Source of the DNA: a bacterium
GTDB taxonomy: Bacteria; Vulcanimicrobiota; Vulcanimicrobiia; Eremiobacterales; Eremiobacteraceae
Length of the DNA: 64,000 nt
NCBI GenBank assembly: GCA_902812405.1
Contig: CADDZI010000003.1
Location: forward strand, 1-64,000
Direction: 5' to 3'
The notes beneath the pieces are model-generated. The model saw only the letters and a list, made by a program, of their open reading frames with translations, was not told the DNA's origin and ran no database searches. Each line of letters starts with the position of its first letter. The first letter of the stretch is position 1. Position numbers and translations under genes: made by a program. This document shows positions 32,893 through 43,695 of this stretch, piece after piece.

Positions 32893-34200
32893 GTGAGGCT
32901 TGCAACGAGACTAGCAACTCTGTGCAGCGCGGCCGCGGCGGCAGGCATCGCCGCCGCGTGCGGGGGCGGGGGTGGAGGAGGAACCATGGGCCCGCCAGCT
33001 ACGGCACCGCCCAGCGTCTGTCCCTCTCCCAACGGTTCCTACCCTCCGGCTGACTGCACGCAGTACACCGTGCAAGGGCAGAGCACCCAGACGATCGTTC
33101 GCTCGTTCCCAACGCCGACACCACCACCCTTTACGGTTCAGGACGCGATCACGGCAAGCATCGTCGTCCACAGCAACCAGCAATTTCACGGGCAGAGCGC
33201 AACCGATTTCCTGACGAACGAGACAGATGCCGGACCACAGCAAACGATCACGACGACCGACAATGTCTACTTCCAATTCCCACAAGCCGGCAACATCCTG
33301 AATATCGGGTACCACTCCCAGGATAGCAACGGGGTCACGCTGGACGTGCAAAACGGTTCCGGCAACGGCATCGTCGGTCAGGTGCCGACTCCCGCTCCCA
33401 TGTGGACCAACAATGCCTCACAGACCATTGTTGAAAACGACCCCGACGGCACGACGACGACACAGACCATCAACCCGGACGGCACCTACAGTCTGACGCG
33501 CCAGGAAACTGCGGGCACGACCAACGCCGCCGACAATCCGGACGGCTCGGGGAGCGCCAGCATCCCCAGTACATCCTTCTTCAACTTCGTCGGCACGGGC
33601 ACGGTCGTCTCGGTCACCGCACCCAGCGGCGGCTCCATCACCTTCACGTTGACCTCGTCCGGAGCTCCGACGCCGACTCCGACCCCCATTGCCCTGACCG
33701 TGCCGGCCTGGTTTGCGCCCCCGCTTGCCGCCGATGCGACGACCAATGAAGGCGTGACCTCCATCCCGGTCGCTTGCAACACCGCCCCCACGTACGGCAC
33801 GACGGGCATCCAGTTGCACGAGGTCAAGACCAACATCGATCCGGTATTCGGCATTCAGGAGACGCAGACGACGGACACCTGGGTAGGCACGGTTGGAACG
33901 ATCTGTCAGATTCTCAACGATGTCACGAAGGTTTACTACGATTTTACGGGTCAGAGCGTCCCGGTCGTCAGCGGCAGCGGCCAGCCGATCCAGACGACCA
34001 CGTTCAACGAAGCGCTGGGCCTGCAGAGCATTTCAACCGCAGCCGCCGGCCGCCACGCGCTCAGTCTGAGCCAGGCCCGGGCGGCTTTCACCTTGCGGCT
34101 CGACATGGCCCGCATCCGCGCGCAGCGCATGCGCATGCGGATCCTCACGCGCCAAGTACAGTCCCTCGAATCCTTCCTCCGACGGAGACCTGTGCGATGA
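32893..34200 (+). CDS. Lipoprotein coupled to S53 peptidase
   Basis: The 435-residue protein has a lipoprotein signal (AGIAAACGG, Cys near residue 23) and a Gly-rich linker. The mature part is rich in Thr, Asn and Gln, with two Pro-Thr repeats (near 64-71 and 257-263), and looks extracellular and beta-rich. It ends in an Arg-rich helix ('RIRAQRMRMRILTRQVQ'). No family recognised. GAGGGG precedes GTG 32893. Its TGA overlaps the ATG of the S53 peptidase gene (ATGA), so the two are translated together and probably work together outside the cell. Confidence 0.78.
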   Translation: MRLATRLATLCSAAAAAGIAAACGGGGGGGTMGPPATAPPSVCPSPNGSYPPADCTQYTVQGQSTQTIVRSFPTPTPPPFTVQDAITASIVVHSNQQFHGQSATDFLTNETDAGPQQTITTTDNVYFQFPQAGNILNIGYHSQDSNGVTLDVQNGSGNGIVGQVPTPAPMWTNNASQTIVENDPDGTTTTQTINPDGTYSLTRQETAGTTNAADNPDGSGSASIPSTSFFNFVGTGTVVSVTAPSGGSITFTLTSSGAPTPTPTPIALTVPAWFAPPLAADATTNEGVTSIPVACNTAPTYGTTGIQLHEVKTNIDPVFGIQETQTTDTWVGTVGTICQILNDVTKVYYDFTGQSVPVVSGSGQPIQTTTFNEALGLQSISTAAAGRHALSLSQARAAFTLRLDMARIRAQRMRMRILTRQVQSLESFLRRRPVR

Positions 34201-36215
34201 TGCGTTGGTTTCTCACGTGTTTCGTGCTCGCGGTTGCGGTGCCGGCTGCGGCCGCACCCTTTGGCTTTCCACCTACAGACGCGGGCCGGCTACCGAGTCA
34301 CGGCCCTATCAGCTTTCCCTGGCTGGCCCGCGGGTCGGCTCGCGGCACGGTGTACCCGTCGTACGACGCAGAGGCGATGCGCGGCGCACAGTATCTGGGG
34401 CGCGCCCGCCTGGGCTGGGCAAGCGTCGACGTCGTACTCCAGATGCGCGACGAAGCAGGGTTGGAGCGCTACGCCCAACTTGTCAGCGATCCGCGTTCAC
34501 TCTACTACCGTCACTTCTTGACACCCGATCAAATCGGCAACGATTTCGGTGCCGCATCCACAGACTACATGCGTGCCGTCGGGTACTTCGCCTCGTACGG
34601 ACTTGGTGTCACCGGCTGGCGACAACGCGAAATGTTGCACGTCGAGGGTCCGCAAGGGAACCTGGAGCGTGCCCTCTCCACGCACCTTGTTTGGTACCGC
34701 AAAAACGGGGAGGTGTTCTTGGGACCGGACGCCCCGCCACGTTTTGCAGTACCGCTGGCGGTGCGCGGTATCGCCAATCTTGTCACCTTCCACCGCATGC
34801 GGACTCACGTGGCGGTCGCAAAACCCTTCCAACCGCTGATCGGATGGGGGGCCGGTTTTTTGGCCGGTGAGTCTCCGTTCCGCCTTGCGGCGGCCTATGA
34901 CTATACCGGTGCGTACAACATCAGTCCATCCTGTTGCAAGGGTGACGGGATCACGATCGGTATTGTCGGGACCGGCCCCATCTCGAGCGCAGATGTCCCC
35001 TTCTTCCACCAACTGTTTCACGTGACCGGCACCAGCAGCGTGCAGCAGGTAAACGTCACGGCCGTCATGCCTTGCTGCTACAGTACGGGATTGCAGACCC
35101 CGCCGCCGGTGACCGCCCCTTGTACGGGCAGTCTGCCGACCTGCAATCCAGAAGACTTCGAGGCTCAACTGGATACCGAGCAGACAAGTTCGCTGGCTTT
35201 GGATGCCACGATCTTGTTCTATTTGGCGTACAATCCCAACGAGTGCTATGCACCCGGAACCTGTCCCCCAGGACAAGGCCTGCCGGAACTCGGCATCGGC
35301 GAAACCGACGACGAGCTACAACAAATCGCCAATGACGACGCGGTGGACATTGTCACCGCCAGTTACGGCATCGGCGAGACGGACTTCGCGGGCCAAAGCG
35401 GGGGACTGTTGAATTCCGACGGCAGCGGCGCGGAGCCCGCGATCTTTGCAACCTTAGTGAGCGAAGGTATCGCCGTCTTCTACTCCTCGGGTGACTCGGG
35501 GGCCGAGGGCTGCCAGCCGGATGGGGTGCCGGCAACGGCGGACCAGATTTGCGCCACCTACCCGTCTTCGGACATCAATGTCGTGTCTGTCGGCGGCACG
35601 AATACACCTATTGACCAGAGCGGACGTCTTGAGGGCCTTATCACGGCGTGGGGTATCGCCACGCAGACCGGAGGCGCCGGCGGCGGTGCCCCGTCGGGTG
35701 TTTTCAAGCGGCCAAGCTACCAACCCCCAGGCTCGTTTTGTGCCACGAACAACCAGTGCGATTCCACACATCGGTTGACGCCTGACCTTGCCTTAAACGC
35801 CGATCCCTCGACCGGTCCGGCCGAGACGGCGAACTGCGGCACCGCTCCGAACTGCGGGGGATTGGGCGGCCCGCTGCTCGGCGCAGCGGGCGGCACGAGC
35901 GCATCCTCACAGGACATGGGAGCGATGTGGGCCTTGGTATTGGAAGCGTGCAAACAGCTGCCCGCGTGCAGCACCGCGACCGGCCCTCATCCGTGGCGAC
36001 TCGGAAACCCGGCACCGCTTTTGTACGCGCTCTCCCAGAGCGCGCGCAACGCGGTGTTCTATGACATCGTGTACGGCAATAACGCGGTGCCGCTGAAGGG
36101 ATCCGGATATTCGCAGCTCGACCCCGGCTTTCTCGCCGCTCCGGGCTACGACCTGACGACCGGCTTGGGCGCCCCGTTTGCGCGCAATCTCATTCACGCC
36201 GTCACCGGGATGTAG
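34197..36215 (+). CDS. Secreted S53-family serine-carboxyl peptidase (sedolisin/kumamolisin-like)
   Basis: The 672-residue proenzyme has a signal peptide (about residues 3-20), a pro-kumamolisin activation domain (about 60-215) and an S53 catalytic domain. The catalytic residues are present: Glu322 and Asp326 in 'EAQLD', Asp433 in 'SSGDSGAEGC', and Ser568 in 'GGTSASSQD'. 'YDLTTGLGAP' near the C-terminus is the calcium-site region. S53 enzymes generally work at acid pH, which would fit an acidic habitat. Several extra cysteines (CC near 245, C-rich insert near 290-320 and 360) suggest disulfides. Coupled to the lipoprotein gene upstream. Confidence 0.93.
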   Translation: MMRWFLTCFVLAVAVPAAAAPFGFPPTDAGRLPSHGPISFPWLARGSARGTVYPSYDAEAMRGAQYLGRARLGWASVDVVLQMRDEAGLERYAQLVSDPRSLYYRHFLTPDQIGNDFGAASTDYMRAVGYFASYGLGVTGWRQREMLHVEGPQGNLERALSTHLVWYRKNGEVFLGPDAPPRFAVPLAVRGIANLVTFHRMRTHVAVAKPFQPLIGWGAGFLAGESPFRLAAAYDYTGAYNISPSCCKGDGITIGIVGTGPISSADVPFFHQLFHVTGTSSVQQVNVTAVMPCCYSTGLQTPPPVTAPCTGSLPTCNPEDFEAQLDTEQTSSLALDATILFYLAYNPNECYAPGTCPPGQGLPELGIGETDDELQQIANDDAVDIVTASYGIGETDFAGQSGGLLNSDGSGAEPAIFATLVSEGIAVFYSSGDSGAEGCQPDGVPATADQICATYPSSDINVVSVGGTNTPIDQSGRLEGLITAWGIATQTGGAGGGAPSGVFKRPSYQPPGSFCATNNQCDSTHRLTPDLALNADPSTGPAETANCGTAPNCGGLGGPLLGAAGGTSASSQDMGAMWALVLEACKQLPACSTATGPHPWRLGNPAPLLYALSQSARNAVFYDIVYGNNAVPLKGSGYSQLDPGFLAAPGYDLTTGLGAPFARNLIHAVTGM

Positions 36216-37150: not shown

Positions 37151-40100
37151 GTGAAGGACCCCTTTCCGCCCACTCCCGAACAGCTGGCCGTCATCGAGCA
37201 TGAGGGGCCAAACCTGCTCGTGCTCGCGGGTCCGGGCACGGGCAAGACCGAGACGCTGGCCCGCCGGTTTGCGTGGCTTGTCAGCCGCGGCACGCCGCCA
37301 CATCGTATCCTGCTCTTGACGTTCTCCCGCCGAGCGGCGGAAGAGATGCGCAACCGCGTTCTCTTGCGCCTGCGCCAGCAACATGGCCGGGGCCTGGCCG
37401 TCACGGAACTCTTCGTGAAAACCTTCCACGGTTTTTGCTCGCGGCTCCTCGACGCGGACGACGTGCGCCGGGTGCGCGCAGCTCTCCTGACCCCGGTACG
37501 CGAGCGTCTTCTGTGGCGCAGCCTCATGCGCAGCGCCTCGTTGTCTCTGCCGTCCTTCGATCCGTCGGTGAGAGACAGCACCCAATTTGCCGCCGATGCC
37601 CTCAACCTGTTTGCTCAGCTCAAAGGCCAAGGTGTGTCAGCGCACGAGTTTGCGCGCCTGGCACGCAAAGACCGGCGCTTGGAAGACCTCGCCCTACTCT
37701 TCGCGCGGATGGAGGACGAGCGCAGGGCGCGCGACCTGCACGACTATCGCGACCTGATCAATGAAGCCAACGAGCAGCTGCGCGACCCCGACAGCCGGGC
37801 CGCGCGCTGGTTGCGCAGCGCCGGCTTCGAGCACATCTTGGTTGATGAATTCCAGGACAGCGACCGCATGCAGCTGCGCCTCCTGGAGGCGATGCGGGAT
37901 AGTCTCACTCCCTCGCCCGCCTTCTGTTTTGTGGGCGATATGAATCAGTCCATTTACCGCTTCCGCGGTGCGACGCCGGATAACGTCTCTCTCGCCGAGA
38001 CCACCTTCGGTTGTATCAAACGTGAACTGCGCCTCAACCGGCGCTCCGTGCCGGTCATCCTCGAGCTTGCCAACGCCGACGCAAGCCTGGACCGGGCGTC
38101 TTTGACGCAGGCCGTCCCCGGTGCAGGCGGCGGATCTGTCCGCCTGCTTCGGCCGCGCACGCTGGACGACGAGGTGCGCTGCGTGCGCGACGAAATCGCG
38201 CGTGCCGTCGCCGCAGGCACTCCCCCCAGCGCCATCGCAGTCCTCTTGCGCCAAACCCATCCGTGCCAGGAGCTCATCATCCAAGCGCTGCGCGAGGTCA
38301 CGATTCCCGTCGCCCCGCAGCCCACGGCCGGCTTTCGCGACGATCCGCTCATCGATGCGGTCCTGACTGCACTTCGGCTGCTCGCGCAGCCGCACGACCA
38401 GCGCCTGTGGCGCCGGCTTCTGGAAAATCCGATTCTGGGCTATCGCCCGCTTGACGTGCGCCTGGCCTTCGACGAGGCGCGCCGTCGCGGTCAGACCGAT
38501 CCGCAGTCTGCGCTGGCCACCATGCCGCCACCCGGCCCTCGCCCGATGCGCAAGCTGCTTGCCGCCTGGCGGCGGTGCCAAAACCTGTTTGCCACGGGAG
38601 CCGGTGCGTTAGATCTCGTGCGCGCCCTCGTCGCCGAGCTCGACCTTTTGCGTCCTTTGCGCGAGCCGATCGCGCCATGTACGTTCGACCCACATGCCTC
38701 GCCCGCACGCTTGGCCGACCTCTTCTCGGCCGCCGCCGACTACAGTACGCAGGACGGCGACGCACTGTCGTTCGTCCACGACCTCGACGAAGTCATCGGG
38801 CTGCTCGCCGATGCGCACCAGCCGCCGCCTGCCGGCCTGGAAGGTGTGCGCGTCATCTCCATCCACGCCGCCAAAGGGCTGGAGTTCGATTTCGTCGTCA
38901 TCCCTCAGGCTCTCGAAGGCGTACTGCCGGCCGAACAACGCCCTCATCGGCTGCTGAGCGCACACGCCGCACGCACGCTTGCCGACGGCGGCATCCGCAT
39001 CTTTGCCGACGACGACCCGGACCGGCGCGAGGAGCATTCGCTGTGGTACGTGGCCGTCACGCGGGCTCGGCGCGACGTCCTCGTCACCGCGCCGCAGGTG
39101 GATGACGACGGCGTACCGTTGACGCTCTCCTCCTTTGCACAGCCACTCGAGCAGGCACTCCCGCCAGCAGCGGATACGCCCGTGGGCGCCGCGCTCCCAG
39201 AACCGGCGCTCGAGGGCGCCGCGTCAGGCGATGCCCAGGCACAGCGGAAGACGCCCGGCGTCCTCCTCCCCATCCACATTGACCTCACCCACCTCTCGCC
39301 AACCGCCGTCGGCACCTACCTCCAGTGTCCGCGCCGCTTCTTCTATCAGTCGATCCTGCGCCTGCCGGATGGCGAAGACGATGCGATGCGGACCGGCAAA
39401 CTGCTTCACACCGTTTTGGCGGCATTTCACAACGCGTACCGCGACTTTACCGCCATCACAACGCCGAAAGAGGAAGCCGAGGCTGCCGCCCGCTTCGAGC
39501 GCGATCTGCACGCTGAGCTCGATCATGCATTGCGGGAGGCGGACGGGGACCGCACGCCAGGCAGCCCGATCACCCACTTCGAGGTCGAGACTCTGACACG
39601 CAATCTCTCGCAGTACGCGGCGTGGCTGGCCAGGGATGCGCGCACGTCACCTTTCCGGGTCTTGGCCTGCGAACGCAACATTGAATGGCCCTATGCAGGC
39701 GTCACGTTGCGGGGCGTGGTCGACCGCGTGGACGAATTGGTTGACGGCGGACTTGTCATTCGCGATTACAAGGCGGGGTCGGGTGAGAGTCTGCTGGCAC
39801 ATGCACTCCGGAAGGTGCTCAGGAAGTTGGATGAAGGGCGGCCGGTCTTCGGAGACGTGCCTTCGAAATTTAATCCGCAGACGCTGCTCTACGTGACGGG
39901 TGTCGAGAGCGCGTGGCGCGCGCCCGTCGTCCGGGTGGAGTACATCTACTTCCGAGGAATGAAGGGCAGCTCCAAAGATGCAGAGCCCCTACCCGAGGAT
40001 GACGAACGCACGAACATCAACGGCGCGCGAGGCCTCGTTGCTGACGTCACGCACATCACAGATGCGGATGGACCGGCTGCCGCAGGCTGCGTGACCCGAG

Positions 40101-40267
40101 GCCAACTGCAGCGGGTCGAACGTGAACTCGTCGCTCCCATTGTCCAGGCCTGCCGGGACGGCCAGGCCATCGCCTTTGCCACAACCGCCGACGAGACAGT
40201 CTGTCGCTTCTGCGCCTACCAACGCATCTGCCCGGGGGCCGGAACGATCGGCGCCTGCAGCGCATGA
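37151..40267 (+). CDS. AdnA/AdnB-like UvrD-family helicase-nuclease, subunit 1
   Basis: The 1038-residue protein combines a superfamily-1 motor with a RecB-type nuclease. Motor motifs in order: Walker A 'GPGTGKTET' (about residue 26), 'LLLTFSRRAAEEM', DEFQD in 'ILVDEFQDSDRMQ', 'FVGDMNQSIYRFRG', 'VISIHAAKGLEFDFVVIP' and 'YVAVTRARRD'. The C-terminal nuclease has 'GKLLHTVL', 'GVVDRVDEL' and 'VIRDYKAG' (D-x-K). One Cys in 'LQCPRRFFYQ' plus three in 'CRFCAYQRIC' form a Fe-S set as in AddB. It likely acts in double-strand-break end processing with the next gene's product, though no Chi-type regulation is visible. GTG start, weak Shine-Dalgarno. Confidence 0.88.
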   Translation: MKDPFPPTPEQLAVIEHEGPNLLVLAGPGTGKTETLARRFAWLVSRGTPPHRILLLTFSRRAAEEMRNRVLLRLRQQHGRGLAVTELFVKTFHGFCSRLLDADDVRRVRAALLTPVRERLLWRSLMRSASLSLPSFDPSVRDSTQFAADALNLFAQLKGQGVSAHEFARLARKDRRLEDLALLFARMEDERRARDLHDYRDLINEANEQLRDPDSRAARWLRSAGFEHILVDEFQDSDRMQLRLLEAMRDSLTPSPAFCFVGDMNQSIYRFRGATPDNVSLAETTFGCIKRELRLNRRSVPVILELANADASLDRASLTQAVPGAGGGSVRLLRPRTLDDEVRCVRDEIARAVAAGTPPSAIAVLLRQTHPCQELIIQALREVTIPVAPQPTAGFRDDPLIDAVLTALRLLAQPHDQRLWRRLLENPILGYRPLDVRLAFDEARRRGQTDPQSALATMPPPGPRPMRKLLAAWRRCQNLFATGAGALDLVRALVAELDLLRPLREPIAPCTFDPHASPARLADLFSAAADYSTQDGDALSFVHDLDEVIGLLADAHQPPPAGLEGVRVISIHAAKGLEFDFVVIPQALEGVLPAEQRPHRLLSAHAARTLADGGIRIFADDDPDRREEHSLWYVAVTRARRDVLVTAPQVDDDGVPLTLSSFAQPLEQALPPAADTPVGAALPEPALEGAASGDAQAQRKTPGVLLPIHIDLTHLSPTAVGTYLQCPRRFFYQSILRLPDGEDDAMRTGKLLHTVLAAFHNAYRDFTAITTPKEEAEAAARFERDLHAELDHALREADGDRTPGSPITHFEVETLTRNLSQYAAWLARDARTSPFRVLACERNIEWPYAGVTLRGVVDRVDELVDGGLVIRDYKAGSGESLLAHALRKVLRKLDEGRPVFGDVPSKFNPQTLLYVTGVESAWRAPVVRVEYIYFRGMKGSSKDAEPLPEDDERTNINGARGLVADVTHITDADGPAAAGCVTRGQLQRVERELVAPIVQACRDGQAIAFATTADETVCRFCAYQRICPGAGTIGACSA

Positions 40268-40277
40268 TTGCGGGCAG

Positions 40278-40367
40278 GCCGGGCACCCTGCATGTCGGGG
40301 TGACGGGGACGCACATTGGCCGTGTCGGGTAGGCGCGGACCGGGCACCCTGCACATCGGGGCGACGG
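40278..40367. repeat. Duplicated ~29-base segment between the helicase genes
   Basis: Two near-identical segments, 40278-40306 and 40339-40367, both contain CCGGGCACCCTGCA followed by T/C-variant CGGGG.GACGG. They are 61 bases apart, start to start, and fill most of the 134-base gap between the two helicase genes. They are not members of the palindrome family. Function unknown; a duplicated regulatory site or chance duplication are both possible. Confidence 0.6.
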
Positions 40368-40401
40368 TGTGCGACCCGGTGTACCGTCGAGGATTATCAG
40401 G

Positions 40402-43400
40402 ATGAAGCCGCACGCCGAACCGCCAGCCGGCCCCCCGCGCCTATCGGAAGAGCAAGAGCTCATTCTGGCCCACCCGACGGACCGGCCTGCCGTCGTGGAC
40501 GCGGGTGCCGGCACGGGCAAAACCCACACCATCGTCGAGCGCGTATGGCACCTTCACCACAACAACCGCTGCCCCGCCTCCCACGTCCTCCTTCTGACGT
40601 TCGCGCGCAAAGCGGCGGCCGAATTGCGCTCGCGCCTCGTGCAGCGCCTGGGCGGTCAGGCACCGGTGTGTTCCACGTTCCATGCCTTTGCCTGGAGCGT
40701 GCTCTCCGCGCACCCGTACGACGCCGGACTGGCGCCCGAGACGACGGTGCTCGAAGACCCGGAAGCACGGGTTGAGTTCCGGAGGGCGTTCGAAGAATTC
40801 TTGGCGGATCCACACGCGGGGCCGACGGGCTTTCCCCTGCGGCCGTACAACCGCGACGAGCTGGCTCGCGATCTCTTCAACCTTCTCGAGAATCTCAAGC
40901 AGGAAGGGATTGCGATATCCGACGTTGCGCGACGAGCTGAAGCCGCGGCGGACGCCTTTGCCCGTATTCCGTATCGCGAACTGCGCAAGCCGTATCGCCG
41001 GAAAGTGAGAGGCCGCGATCACAAGGTTGAGCTGGCGATCACAGATCAGGCTCTACGCCAAGAAGTCGCGTGGGAGAAGCAGCGCATCGCAACCTGCCTC
41101 GCCGTGTGGGAACGCTTCGCGCAGCGTCTGGCAGCCCGTCACGGCCTCACCTACGCGGACCTTCTCCTCCTGGCAGAGCGCGCGCTGCGCGAGGATGAGA
41201 CCTTACGCCGGACGCTGCGCCAACGCTACCGGCTGTGCATCGTCGATGAGTACCAGGATACCGACCGGGCGCAACACCGCTTCCTCCAGGCCCTCTTCGG
41301 CGATGACGTGCCCTGCGTCATGGTCGTGGGCGACGTCCTGCAAAGCATCTTTAGCTTCCGGGGCGCTCACCCCGCCAACGTCGACCGCATCCGGCGGGCG
41401 CCTGAGGCGGCCTGTTACAGCTTGCACCACAACCGCCGTTCGCGCCAGGAAATCTTGGATCTCGCACACACCATCGTCCGGCAGGCGCATCCCCAGGCAG
41501 CCGTTTTGCAGGCCGCGCACGGAGCGGCCCAGACGCAGATTGTTGAGGCCGCAAGCATCTGGGGCCCGTCCGGCGTCTTCGTGCCCGCCGAGCTAGCTCG
41601 CGAACACGAAGCCGAGTGGGTTGCGCGCCACATTCGTGCGGCGTTGGATGCCGGCCTCACGATTGAACGCGACGACCGAGTCGAACCCCTGCAGCCGCGG
41701 CACATTGCCATTTTGTCGCGCACCAAGCGCAACATGCGCCCGGTGACGGACGCGCTGGTACGCTACGGGGTTCCCTTCGTACTCGTCGGCGGCGCCGGTT
41801 TCTACGACGCGCCGGAAATCCGAGATGCCGTGGCCTGGATTCGCTTGCTGGCCGATCCGCTTGATTCATTGGCTGCGGCGCGTGCGCTGCAGTCACCCAC
41901 GGTGGGCGCCTCCGATGCCGTTGCCGCCCGCCTGGCAGCCGGCATCGATGCCGACGACACCGCGTTTGCACGTCGCATCCTGGTCGAGGAGCTGCCGACG
42001 ACACGTGATTGTCCGGAAAACCTCGACCGCGCCGCCGCCGAGGCCTGCCGGTGCATGCGCACCATCATCGAGCGGCTGGCGCCCTATGCATCGGCACCTC
42101 TGCCCTTCGCAGTGCGCGCAGTTCTGGACGCAACGCAGGCCGAATCTCACTGCCGAGCCGGTGGCGATCCACGCGGCGCACAGGCATTGGCCAACCTGGC
42201 ACGTTTGGAAGCTCTGGCCCGCTCGTTCGCACAGAACATGCCCGCCGCCCAGCCCGCCGACTTCGTCACCTTCATGCGGGAGTTGGAAGACGTCGACTTC
42301 GACGAGCGCGAAGCCGACGTCAGTTCTGCCGACGCCGTGACGATTGCGACCATTCACGCCGCAAAAGGTCTGGAGTGGCCGTATGTCTTTGTCATCGGCG
42401 TCTGGCCTCAGCTGTCCCATCGCACGCGTCTTCGCATCGACCCCGTCAGCGGGGCCCTGCTGTTCGCCGAAAACCCGGATGGCTCACGATCTTTCCACGA
42501 CGAGAGCGTCCGGCGTCACGCCGACAGTCAAGGCTACATCCCCTCCGAAGCCCCTTCGCCCGACATGAGCGAGGAAACCCGGCTCTTCTACGTGGCGCTG
42601 ACGCGGGCGCGCGATCGGCTCTTCGTCAGCGGGCCGCGCGGCAAACCTTCCAAAGGTAAGCCGTACGGCAGCGCACACCGTTACCTGGAGGCGGTGTATC
42701 ACTGGCTTCAGCAGCGCGACTGGCCGGCCGATCAGCCCGCCCCGGATGTCCTGCCGTCGCGACGTGCAGTTGCAGTACCGCCCCTGGCCTCAGCGTCCGT
42801 GCCCGCGGCTTTTGCACGCCCGGCGGATGAGCGATCGGCCATGACCGGAGGAGTACTCTCGTACTCGCTCATCGCCGCCTACGAACAATGCCCGCGCCAG
42901 GCCCGCTACAAGTCCGTTCTGGGGCTGCCCGGCGTTCGCATCGCTGCGGGCACGACGGCCCAACGCGTTGCCACAACGCTCGCCGCAATCGGCCTGCCAC
43001 AGGCAGACGATCCCGACGCGACCCCCGATGCGGCGGAGCTTGCCGCACCCGATTCCTTGCTTGGCTCGAGCGACTATGGACTCGTCCTTCACAAAGCGTG
43101 CGAGCGATGGGCACGGGACCGCAAAACCGGACAGCCCGAACTGTCGAAATCCCATTACGTGCGCGAGGCCGCCGGGCAGTTGGGTCTTACTATTGAAGAC
43201 GCTCAGGCCGCACAAGCCGCCCAAGCACTGGCCGGCATTGCCCGTGCACTGGATGGCTGGAGGCCCCTACATGTGGAAGCGCCCTTTCTGCTCGATCTTG
43301 GCGAAGGCGACCAGCCGCTGCTTGTCCGCGGTTATCTGGACCTGCTGGCACAGGATCCACAAGGGCGGCCATGTCTTGTCGACTACAAGACCGGCAAGCC

Positions 43401-43695
43401 GAGGGCCCACTATGCTTTGCAACTCGCCCTCTACGCCGAGGCGGCTCGTCGCGTCTATGGGCTGGACGACGTCCGCTGTTATGTCGGCCACGTGGACCGC
43501 GCCAGGTTTCGGCTCGAAGAGGTCGAGACCGTCCCTGCGGCCGAGATGCGCCGGCGCGTGCTCGACGTGCGGGCCGGGCTGACTGGCAACGACGATACGG
43601 CCCGCCCCGGCGAATGGTGCTGGACCTGTCCCTACCGGAAGGCTCCCTGCCTTGCGTACACGTCGGCTCGGCGCCATGTCGCGGCAAAAAAATAA
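40402..43695 (+). CDS. AdnA/AdnB-like UvrD-family helicase-nuclease, subunit 2
   Basis: The 1097-residue protein has the same order as its neighbour: Walker A 'GAGTGKTHT' (about residue 38), 'LLLTFARKAAAEL', DEYQD in 'CIVDEYQDTDRAQ', 'VVGDVLQSIFSFRG', 'TIHAAKGLEWPYVFVIG' and 'YVALTRARDR'. The nuclease domain shows 'GLVLHKACERW', 'GYLDLLAQD' and 'CLVDYKTGK', and QxxxY in 'QLALYAEA'. Fe-S cysteines: 'YEQCPRQARYK' and 'WCWTCPYRKAPC'. GAGGA about nine bases before ATG 40402 sets the start (GTG 40369 also opens the frame). Both subunits retaining motor and nuclease domains distinguishes this pair from RecBCD and AddAB. Confidence 0.88.
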   Translation: MKPHAEPPAGPPRLSEEQELILAHPTDRPAVVDAGAGTGKTHTIVERVWHLHHNNRCPASHVLLLTFARKAAAELRSRLVQRLGGQAPVCSTFHAFAWSVLSAHPYDAGLAPETTVLEDPEARVEFRRAFEEFLADPHAGPTGFPLRPYNRDELARDLFNLLENLKQEGIAISDVARRAEAAADAFARIPYRELRKPYRRKVRGRDHKVELAITDQALRQEVAWEKQRIATCLAVWERFAQRLAARHGLTYADLLLLAERALREDETLRRTLRQRYRLCIVDEYQDTDRAQHRFLQALFGDDVPCVMVVGDVLQSIFSFRGAHPANVDRIRRAPEAACYSLHHNRRSRQEILDLAHTIVRQAHPQAAVLQAAHGAAQTQIVEAASIWGPSGVFVPAELAREHEAEWVARHIRAALDAGLTIERDDRVEPLQPRHIAILSRTKRNMRPVTDALVRYGVPFVLVGGAGFYDAPEIRDAVAWIRLLADPLDSLAAARALQSPTVGASDAVAARLAAGIDADDTAFARRILVEELPTTRDCPENLDRAAAEACRCMRTIIERLAPYASAPLPFAVRAVLDATQAESHCRAGGDPRGAQALANLARLEALARSFAQNMPAAQPADFVTFMRELEDVDFDEREADVSSADAVTIATIHAAKGLEWPYVFVIGVWPQLSHRTRLRIDPVSGALLFAENPDGSRSFHDESVRRHADSQGYIPSEAPSPDMSEETRLFYVALTRARDRLFVSGPRGKPSKGKPYGSAHRYLEAVYHWLQQRDWPADQPAPDVLPSRRAVAVPPLASASVPAAFARPADERSAMTGGVLSYSLIAAYEQCPRQARYKSVLGLPGVRIAAGTTAQRVATTLAAIGLPQADDPDATPDAAELAAPDSLLGSSDYGLVLHKACERWARDRKTGQPELSKSHYVREAAGQLGLTIEDAQAAQAAQALAGIARALDGWRPLHVEAPFLLDLGEGDQPLLVRGYLDLLAQDPQGRPCLVDYKTGKPRAHYALQLALYAEAARRVYGLDDVRCYVGHVDRARFRLEEVETVPAAEMRRRVLDVRAGLTGNDDTARPGEWCWTCPYRKAPCLAYTSARRHVAAKK

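Follow-up and report, generated by a model that had tools for sequence, protein, structure and literature searches.

A pair of helicase-nuclease genes

We found two adjacent genes, A and B, on the forward strand of a 64,000-nucleotide stretch of an Eremiobacteraceae genome (phylum Vulcanimicrobiota; assembly GCA_902812405.1, contig CADDZI010000003.1, positions 1 to 64,000; hereafter the window), which together span positions 37151 to 43695 and each encode a UvrD-type helicase motor fused to a RecB-type PD-(D/E)XK nuclease. An earlier note on this DNA had described them as an AdnAB-like pair of dual helicase-nucleases. Its coordinates and reading frames for both genes stand, as do a complete motor in each product (from Pfam domains and motif alignments), a nuclease with the D-x-K motif and four cysteines in each (from alignments), and the two-motor, two-nuclease layout with AdnAB-like subunit sizes and A-then-B order. 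The features are as follows:

37151..40267, + strand: gene A, predicted AdnA/AddB-side helicase-nuclease subunit, 1038 amino acids, GTG start (open reading frame, Pfam, trees, 18-member alignment)
37172..38008, + strand: A, UvrD/Rep N-terminal motor domain, PF00580, residues 8-286
37229-37249, + strand: A, Walker A
within 37838-37864, + strand: A, motif II, DEFQD
39290..40234, + strand: A, PDDEXK_1 nuclease, residues 714-1028
39764-39772, + strand: A, nuclease D872-Y-K874
39326, 40202, 40211 and 40229, + strand: A, Cys 726, 1018, 1021 and 1027
40369..43695, + strand: gene B, predicted AddA/AdnB-side helicase-nuclease subunit, 1108 amino acids from a GTG (open reading frame, Pfam, trees, 16-member alignment)
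40444..41394, + strand: B, UvrD/Rep N-terminal motor domain, PF00580, residues 26-342
42856..43641, + strand: B, PDDEXK_1 nuclease, residues 830-1091
43381-43389, + strand: B, nuclease D1005-Y-K1007
42889, 43618, 43627 and 43648, + strand: B, Cys 841, 1084, 1087 and 1094, the last just beyond the domain match

All three Pfam domains are matched above their curated cut-offs in both proteins: UvrD-helicase (A, 3e-51; B, 2.9e-49), UvrD_C (A, 1.7e-24; B, 3.3e-37) and PDDEXK_1 (A, 9.1e-31; B, 2.5e-18). Neither protein reaches the equivalog level of any NCBIfam model, the pcrA, addA and recB models lying far under their cut-offs. The GTG at 40369 possibly places the start of B too far upstream; an alternative in-frame ATG, at 40402 (residue 12), lies nearer the conserved part.

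The alignments recover the motor motifs GPGTGKT, LVDEFQDSD, VGDMNQSIYRFRGA, SIHAAKGLEFD and YVAVTRA in A, and GAGTGKT, IVDEYQDTD, VGDVLQSIFSFRGA, TIHAAKGLEWP and YVALTRA in B. The nuclease motifs are GKLLH, D861 and D872-Y-K874 in A and GLVLH, D991 and D1005-Y-K1007 in B, and in both subunits alike one cysteine of iron-sulfur (Fe-S) type precedes the nuclease core and three follow at the C-terminus. Among 18 A and 16 B proteins of relatives within the class, which share 29-54% identity with the window proteins, the Walker A lysine and threonine and the DE-QD core of the motor, as well as the D, D-x-K and QxxxY residues of the nuclease and all four cysteines per subunit, are unchanged throughout. 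Since the catalytic residues and cysteines are invariant among relatives this diverged, the motifs are not due to chance. Column-by-column tables of the motor and nuclease motifs agree with the alignments in assigning full sets to the A and B proteins of the class (window-class A and B).

Comparison with characterized and related enzymes

Mycobacterial AdnAB (PDB 6ppj, 6ppr, 6ppu, 7sjr, 9np6) shares with the window pair subunits of about 1040 and 1100 amino acids, a superfamily 1A (SF1A) motor with a RecB-type nuclease in each, the A gene placed before the B gene, and four cysteines in the A subunit. As an AdnAB anchor we used an Actinomycetota pair (L173) that matches 7sjr_A (AdnA) with 1373 bits and 6ppu_B (AdnB) with 1668 bits over nearly the full length. 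Its mycobacterial-type AdnA differs from window A, in which the motor motifs are canonical, in that its motif II reads VDDAQH and its motifs Ia, V and VI are eroded (LTGSGRLA, SPHAALDRDWD and IAAMGRARH), and its AdnB lacks any Fe-S cysteines, whereas the window pair carries them in both subunits. The earlier note's view of two equivalent motors in mycobacterial AdnAB is thus inaccurate: the AdnA motor motifs there are eroded, and ATP hydrolysis by that motor has not been detected (PMC13309787). Across actinobacteria, motif II of AdnA is changed from DE-Q in nine of 13 sampled proteins, including the mycobacterial ones, and is kept in L174, L191 and L192, with DELQE in L190; the C-terminal cysteines are missing from the AdnB of L173-L178 and L180. 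Among the Actinomycetota pairs L173-L192, the AdnA motor and the Fe-S cysteines of AdnB have decayed to graded extents from lineage to lineage: the motor is kept in L174 and L192, and L191 keeps both it and the AdnB cysteines and is thereby close to the state of the window pair.

Dual-motor pairs with both motors and both nucleases intact also occur in Chloroflexota (L261-L265, in genomes G214, G254, G246, G262 and G206), although their sequences are only distantly related to those of the window pair and the C-terminal cysteines of their A proteins are unusually spaced, for example in a CLSWFGCPHASVC type. Single-gene UvrD-PDDEXK fusions (HN1) combine a motor and an Fe-S PDDEXK nuclease in one chain as A and B do, but have no partner gene and form a separate basal clade (96/94). 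These fusions, mostly with four cysteines, were seen in Patescibacteria, Omnitrophota, Acidobacteriota and other classes of the window's phylum (L055, L057, L059, L061, L064, L083, L087, L104, L111, L130, L197, L199, L203, L207 and L209). RecBCD shares the RecB-type motor-nuclease and differs in its RecC and RecD subunits, as neither RecC nor RecD2 was found in the window genome (see below); PcrA/UvrD stand alone without a nuclease, whereas the window proteins carry a fused nuclease and form a separate clade.

Phylogenetic placement of the two subunits

Our comparison set comprised the anchor and twelve further actinobacterial pairs, AddAB pairs from Actinomycetota, Clostridia, Chloroflexota and the window's own phylum, single-gene fusions, RecB and UvrD. 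In a motor-domain tree of 62 rows built with the careful method and without AddB, AdnA, window-class A and the Chloroflexota A proteins form a clade (99/98), within which window-class A is sister to Chloroflexota A (99/95), and B branches among AddA, AdnB and Chloroflexota B without resolution. Both full-length trees were built with a quick method, whose supports (marked SH below) come from the Shimodaira-Hasegawa-like approximate likelihood ratio test only and are less trustworthy. The first (66 rows) places A with AdnA (SH 98) and B with AddA and Chloroflexota B (SH 99). The second (56 rows, 19 of them AddB) unites AdnA, AddB, window-class A and Chloroflexota A in one clade (SH 98) with its inner branching open, and again joins B to AddA and Chloroflexota B (SH 97), with AdnB apart. 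A tree of the nuclease domain sets the nuclease of A beside AddB (90), in a weak topology with 38 of its 104 inner branches open.

The approximately unbiased (AU) test rejects window-class A and B as a single clade (p-AU 0.016 and 0.0026), and the duplication from which A and B stem therefore predates the class. It does not reject B with AddA (p-AU 0.465), B with Chloroflexota B and AdnB to the exclusion of AddA (0.13 and 0.148), or A with AdnA to the exclusion of AddB (0.326); a single clade of AdnA and AdnB returns an indecisive 0.061. The best tree has A, Chloroflexota A and AddB on one side, but with a support of 43. In the trees, A thus falls firmly on the AdnA/AddB side of the superfamily and B on the AddA/AdnB side, where it joins AddA at least as well as AdnB.

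The pair in its genome and phylum

A tree of RpoB groups the window genome with four genomes of its own phylum (support 99) and apart from Chloroflexota, Patescibacteria, Clostridia and the Pseudomonadota-Acidobacteriota side, while ten Actinomycetota rows are separate (support 100). The host phylum is therefore not Actinomycetota, the case in which the earlier note had seen a useful evolutionary example; the link of AdnAB to Actinomycetota is a habit of its distribution and no demand of its structure. That note had also seen no recD-like or addAB gene nearby, and a search of the whole assembly (2.32 Mb, 96.65% complete, with perhaps about 3% of the genome absent) extends this: it recovered no RecC, no RecD2, no AddB and no further RecB or AddA. 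The sole weak match to AddB is gene A itself, where the addB_Gpos profile hits only the motor end, scoring 20.5 bits where the cut-off is 903.7. UvrD_N domains number three in the genome (A, B and a PcrA/UvrD on contig C12), and PDDEXK_1 domains four: A, B, a 739-residue protein on contig C25 and a 326-residue protein on contig C8, neither of the last two carrying a motor. In the absence of RecC, RecD2, AddB and further RecB or AddA, the genome has no candidate for a RecBCD/AddAB/AdnAB-type enzyme other than the pair, given the roughly 3% that may be missing. RecO is present.

We considered the 739-residue protein (L004:1462-3681) as a hidden AddB and rejected it: it has a nuclease domain only, with PDDEXK_1 at the C-terminus and an N-terminal half without a Pfam match, and scores 62.7 bits with TIGR03623 (cut-off 299.6). 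Shorter open reading frames with this type of nuclease are widespread in the large sister family f2 and are often the only PDDEXK_1 protein of a genome.

The survey of the phylum took in 107 genomes with a completeness of at least 85%, without evident subsampling, unlike that of Actinomycetota and Chloroflexota. Gene A is present in the window's own family (f1) in 11 of its 14 genomes, in all three of family f3 and in at least seven of the 68 of f2. Wherever both genes could be read, A and B are adjacent, co-directional and in A-then-B order, and this adjacency, the order and the nuclease fusion are kept across the three families of the class. The flanking genes on both sides are common across the own family, and the pair is thus inherited vertically within it. 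Immediately before the pair, at 33774-36215, a large open reading frame encodes a pro-kumamolisin activation domain; only one near relative (L039) shares it. Other families of the phylum have AddB-AddA pairs and/or single-gene helicase-nucleases. At the thresholds used, PDDEXK_1 is represented in most f2 genomes by a single lone protein and the UvrD type by PcrA alone, and most of the 68 appear to be without any RecB, AddA or AdnAB-type enzyme.

Functional prediction and competing explanations

We consider it likely that A and B assemble into a heterodimer, an ATP-dependent helicase-nuclease belonging to the AddAB/AdnAB superfamily and representing a dual-motor lineage outside Actinomycetota that serves DNA-end resection for RecA. 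Our preferred description of the pair is as a third lineage of this superfamily, one with two motors, and a similar pair occurs in Chloroflexota. By homology, the complex would load on a double-strand DNA end, where one or both 3'-5' SF1A motors would translocate along and unwind the DNA; the PD-(D/E)XK nuclease of each subunit would then allow both strands to be cut, potentially leaving a resected single-stranded tail for RecA loading. The pair probably resects double-strand breaks for RecA. Heterodimer formation, Fe-S binding, end resection, handover to RecA and ATP hydrolysis by both motors are inferred, whereas the sequences themselves show the domains, the motifs, their conservation, the uniqueness of the pair in its genome and a duplication predating the class.

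In favor of this reading, both motors and both nucleases are complete, with invariant catalytic positions across the class; the two genes keep their adjacency, direction and order; the locus sits in a neighborhood conserved within the family; no second enzyme of the type was found in the genome, while RecO is present; A groups with AdnA and AddB, and B with AddA/AdnB-side proteins; and a duplication inside the class is rejected. Several observations weigh against it. The trees do not settle the nearest kin of A (AdnA or AddB) or of B (AddA or AdnB). The pair is absent from most f2 genomes and from three of the 14 of its own family, and is therefore dispensable or replaceable. The AlphaFold models cover single chains only, A (predicted local distance difference test (pLDDT) 83.0, predicted template-modelling score (pTM) 0.62) and B (pLDDT 80.4, pTM 0.68), and for A Foldseek ranks plain UvrD/PcrA motors first. 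On the supporting side, A aligns over most of its length with AddAB and AdnA chains, near full-length AddA, AddB and AdnA matches standing among those motors, and the four best matches of B are AddA chains (top, 4cej_A, 7.6e-38). TM-scores are low for both single-chain models because the relative placement of their domains is uncertain.

One competing explanation, to which we would give somewhat less than an even chance, is an ordinary AddAB, i.e., an AddB that retained its motor together with an AddA that retained its Fe-S cysteines. AddAB/RexAB (PDB 3u44, 4cej) is likewise a two-subunit enzyme with a nuclease in each; A resembles AddB at the nuclease, and B goes with AddA both by fold and in the full-length quick trees, a grouping that the AU test does not reject. 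The position of AddB in the best tree, though its support is 43, and the occurrence of AddAB in other classes of the phylum point the same way. Yet all 19 AddB proteins examined are without complete motor motifs, whereas every window-class A has them, and the addB_Gpos profile falls far short of its cut-off, at the motor end of A only. Most sampled AddA also lack the Fe-S cysteines, of which window B has four, although some actinobacterial AddA retain them, so that cysteine loss in AddA is not strict.

It is likewise conceivable, if rather doubtful, that the pair is a true AdnAB orthologue with A as AdnA and B as AdnB, obtained by common ancestry with Actinomycetota or by lateral transfer; AdnA has itself been equated with AddB (PMC4824097). 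Architecture, sizes and gene order are identical in kind, the B profile finds its best PDB sequence match in AdnB (6ppu_B, 377.8 bits), and the AU test tolerates both of the required groupings. The AdnAB identity proposed by the earlier note is thus supported in part, but not as a strict identity: A joins AdnA when AddB is left out, and lies in the joint AdnA/AddB/A clade with open branching once AddB is added. The clustering with AddA/AddB that the note had named as contrary evidence is half borne out for B, which both full-length quick trees join to AddA and Chloroflexota B; Foldseek also favors AddA for B, and the weak nuclease tree places A with AddB. Window B is not demonstrably an AdnB orthologue, even though its grouping with Chloroflexota B and AdnB is not rejected.

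RecBCD-type enzymes degrade foreign linear DNA, and a pair acting in defense or plasmid processing instead of housekeeping break repair would accord with the patchy distribution in f2 and with a motif-level sequence similarity to GajB helicases. We regard this as very improbable in view of the conserved chromosomal neighborhood, the near-universal presence in f1, the lack of defense genes among the Pfam-tested neighbors (PADLOC was not run) and the lack of any other enzyme of this type in the genome. PcrA/UvrD profiles match A as well as B, but the notion of two unrelated UvrD paralogues set side by side by chance has practically no standing, being contradicted by the arrangement conserved in three families, the same layout in Actinomycetota and Chloroflexota, and the separation of A and B from UvrD in the trees (support 100).

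Evolutionary implications

Returning to the third, dual-motor lineage, the simplest reading of these sequences would be an ancestral heterodimer with two motors and two Fe-S nucleases, parts of which were lost separately. AddAB would then have lost the A motor and the B cysteines, while in mycobacterial AdnAB the A motor would have eroded and the B cysteines been lost. Going further, we tentatively suggest that both motors and both Fe-S nucleases of the window pair are working and near the ancestral state, that AddAB and mycobacterial AdnAB were derived from such a state by separate decay, and that the two motors, sharing one polarity, would engage the two DNA strands or work in relay; taken as a whole, this proposal is more doubtful than probable.

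When 5563 complete bacterial genomes were surveyed, AdnAB was reported exclusively from Actinobacteria (PMC6452273), but the profiles of that survey were built from hits above 40% identity and so could miss pairs this divergent. We found no report of a dual-motor pair in the window's phylum or in Chloroflexota in the open-access papers searched, subscription papers being outside the scope of the search. An AdnAB-like dual-motor pair is now seen to be conserved in a second phylum, with a similar pair in a third. Because window-class A retains every motor motif lost in mycobacterial AdnA, it offers a direct test of the purpose of the second motor, as well as an intermediate for working out the origin of AddAB and AdnAB.

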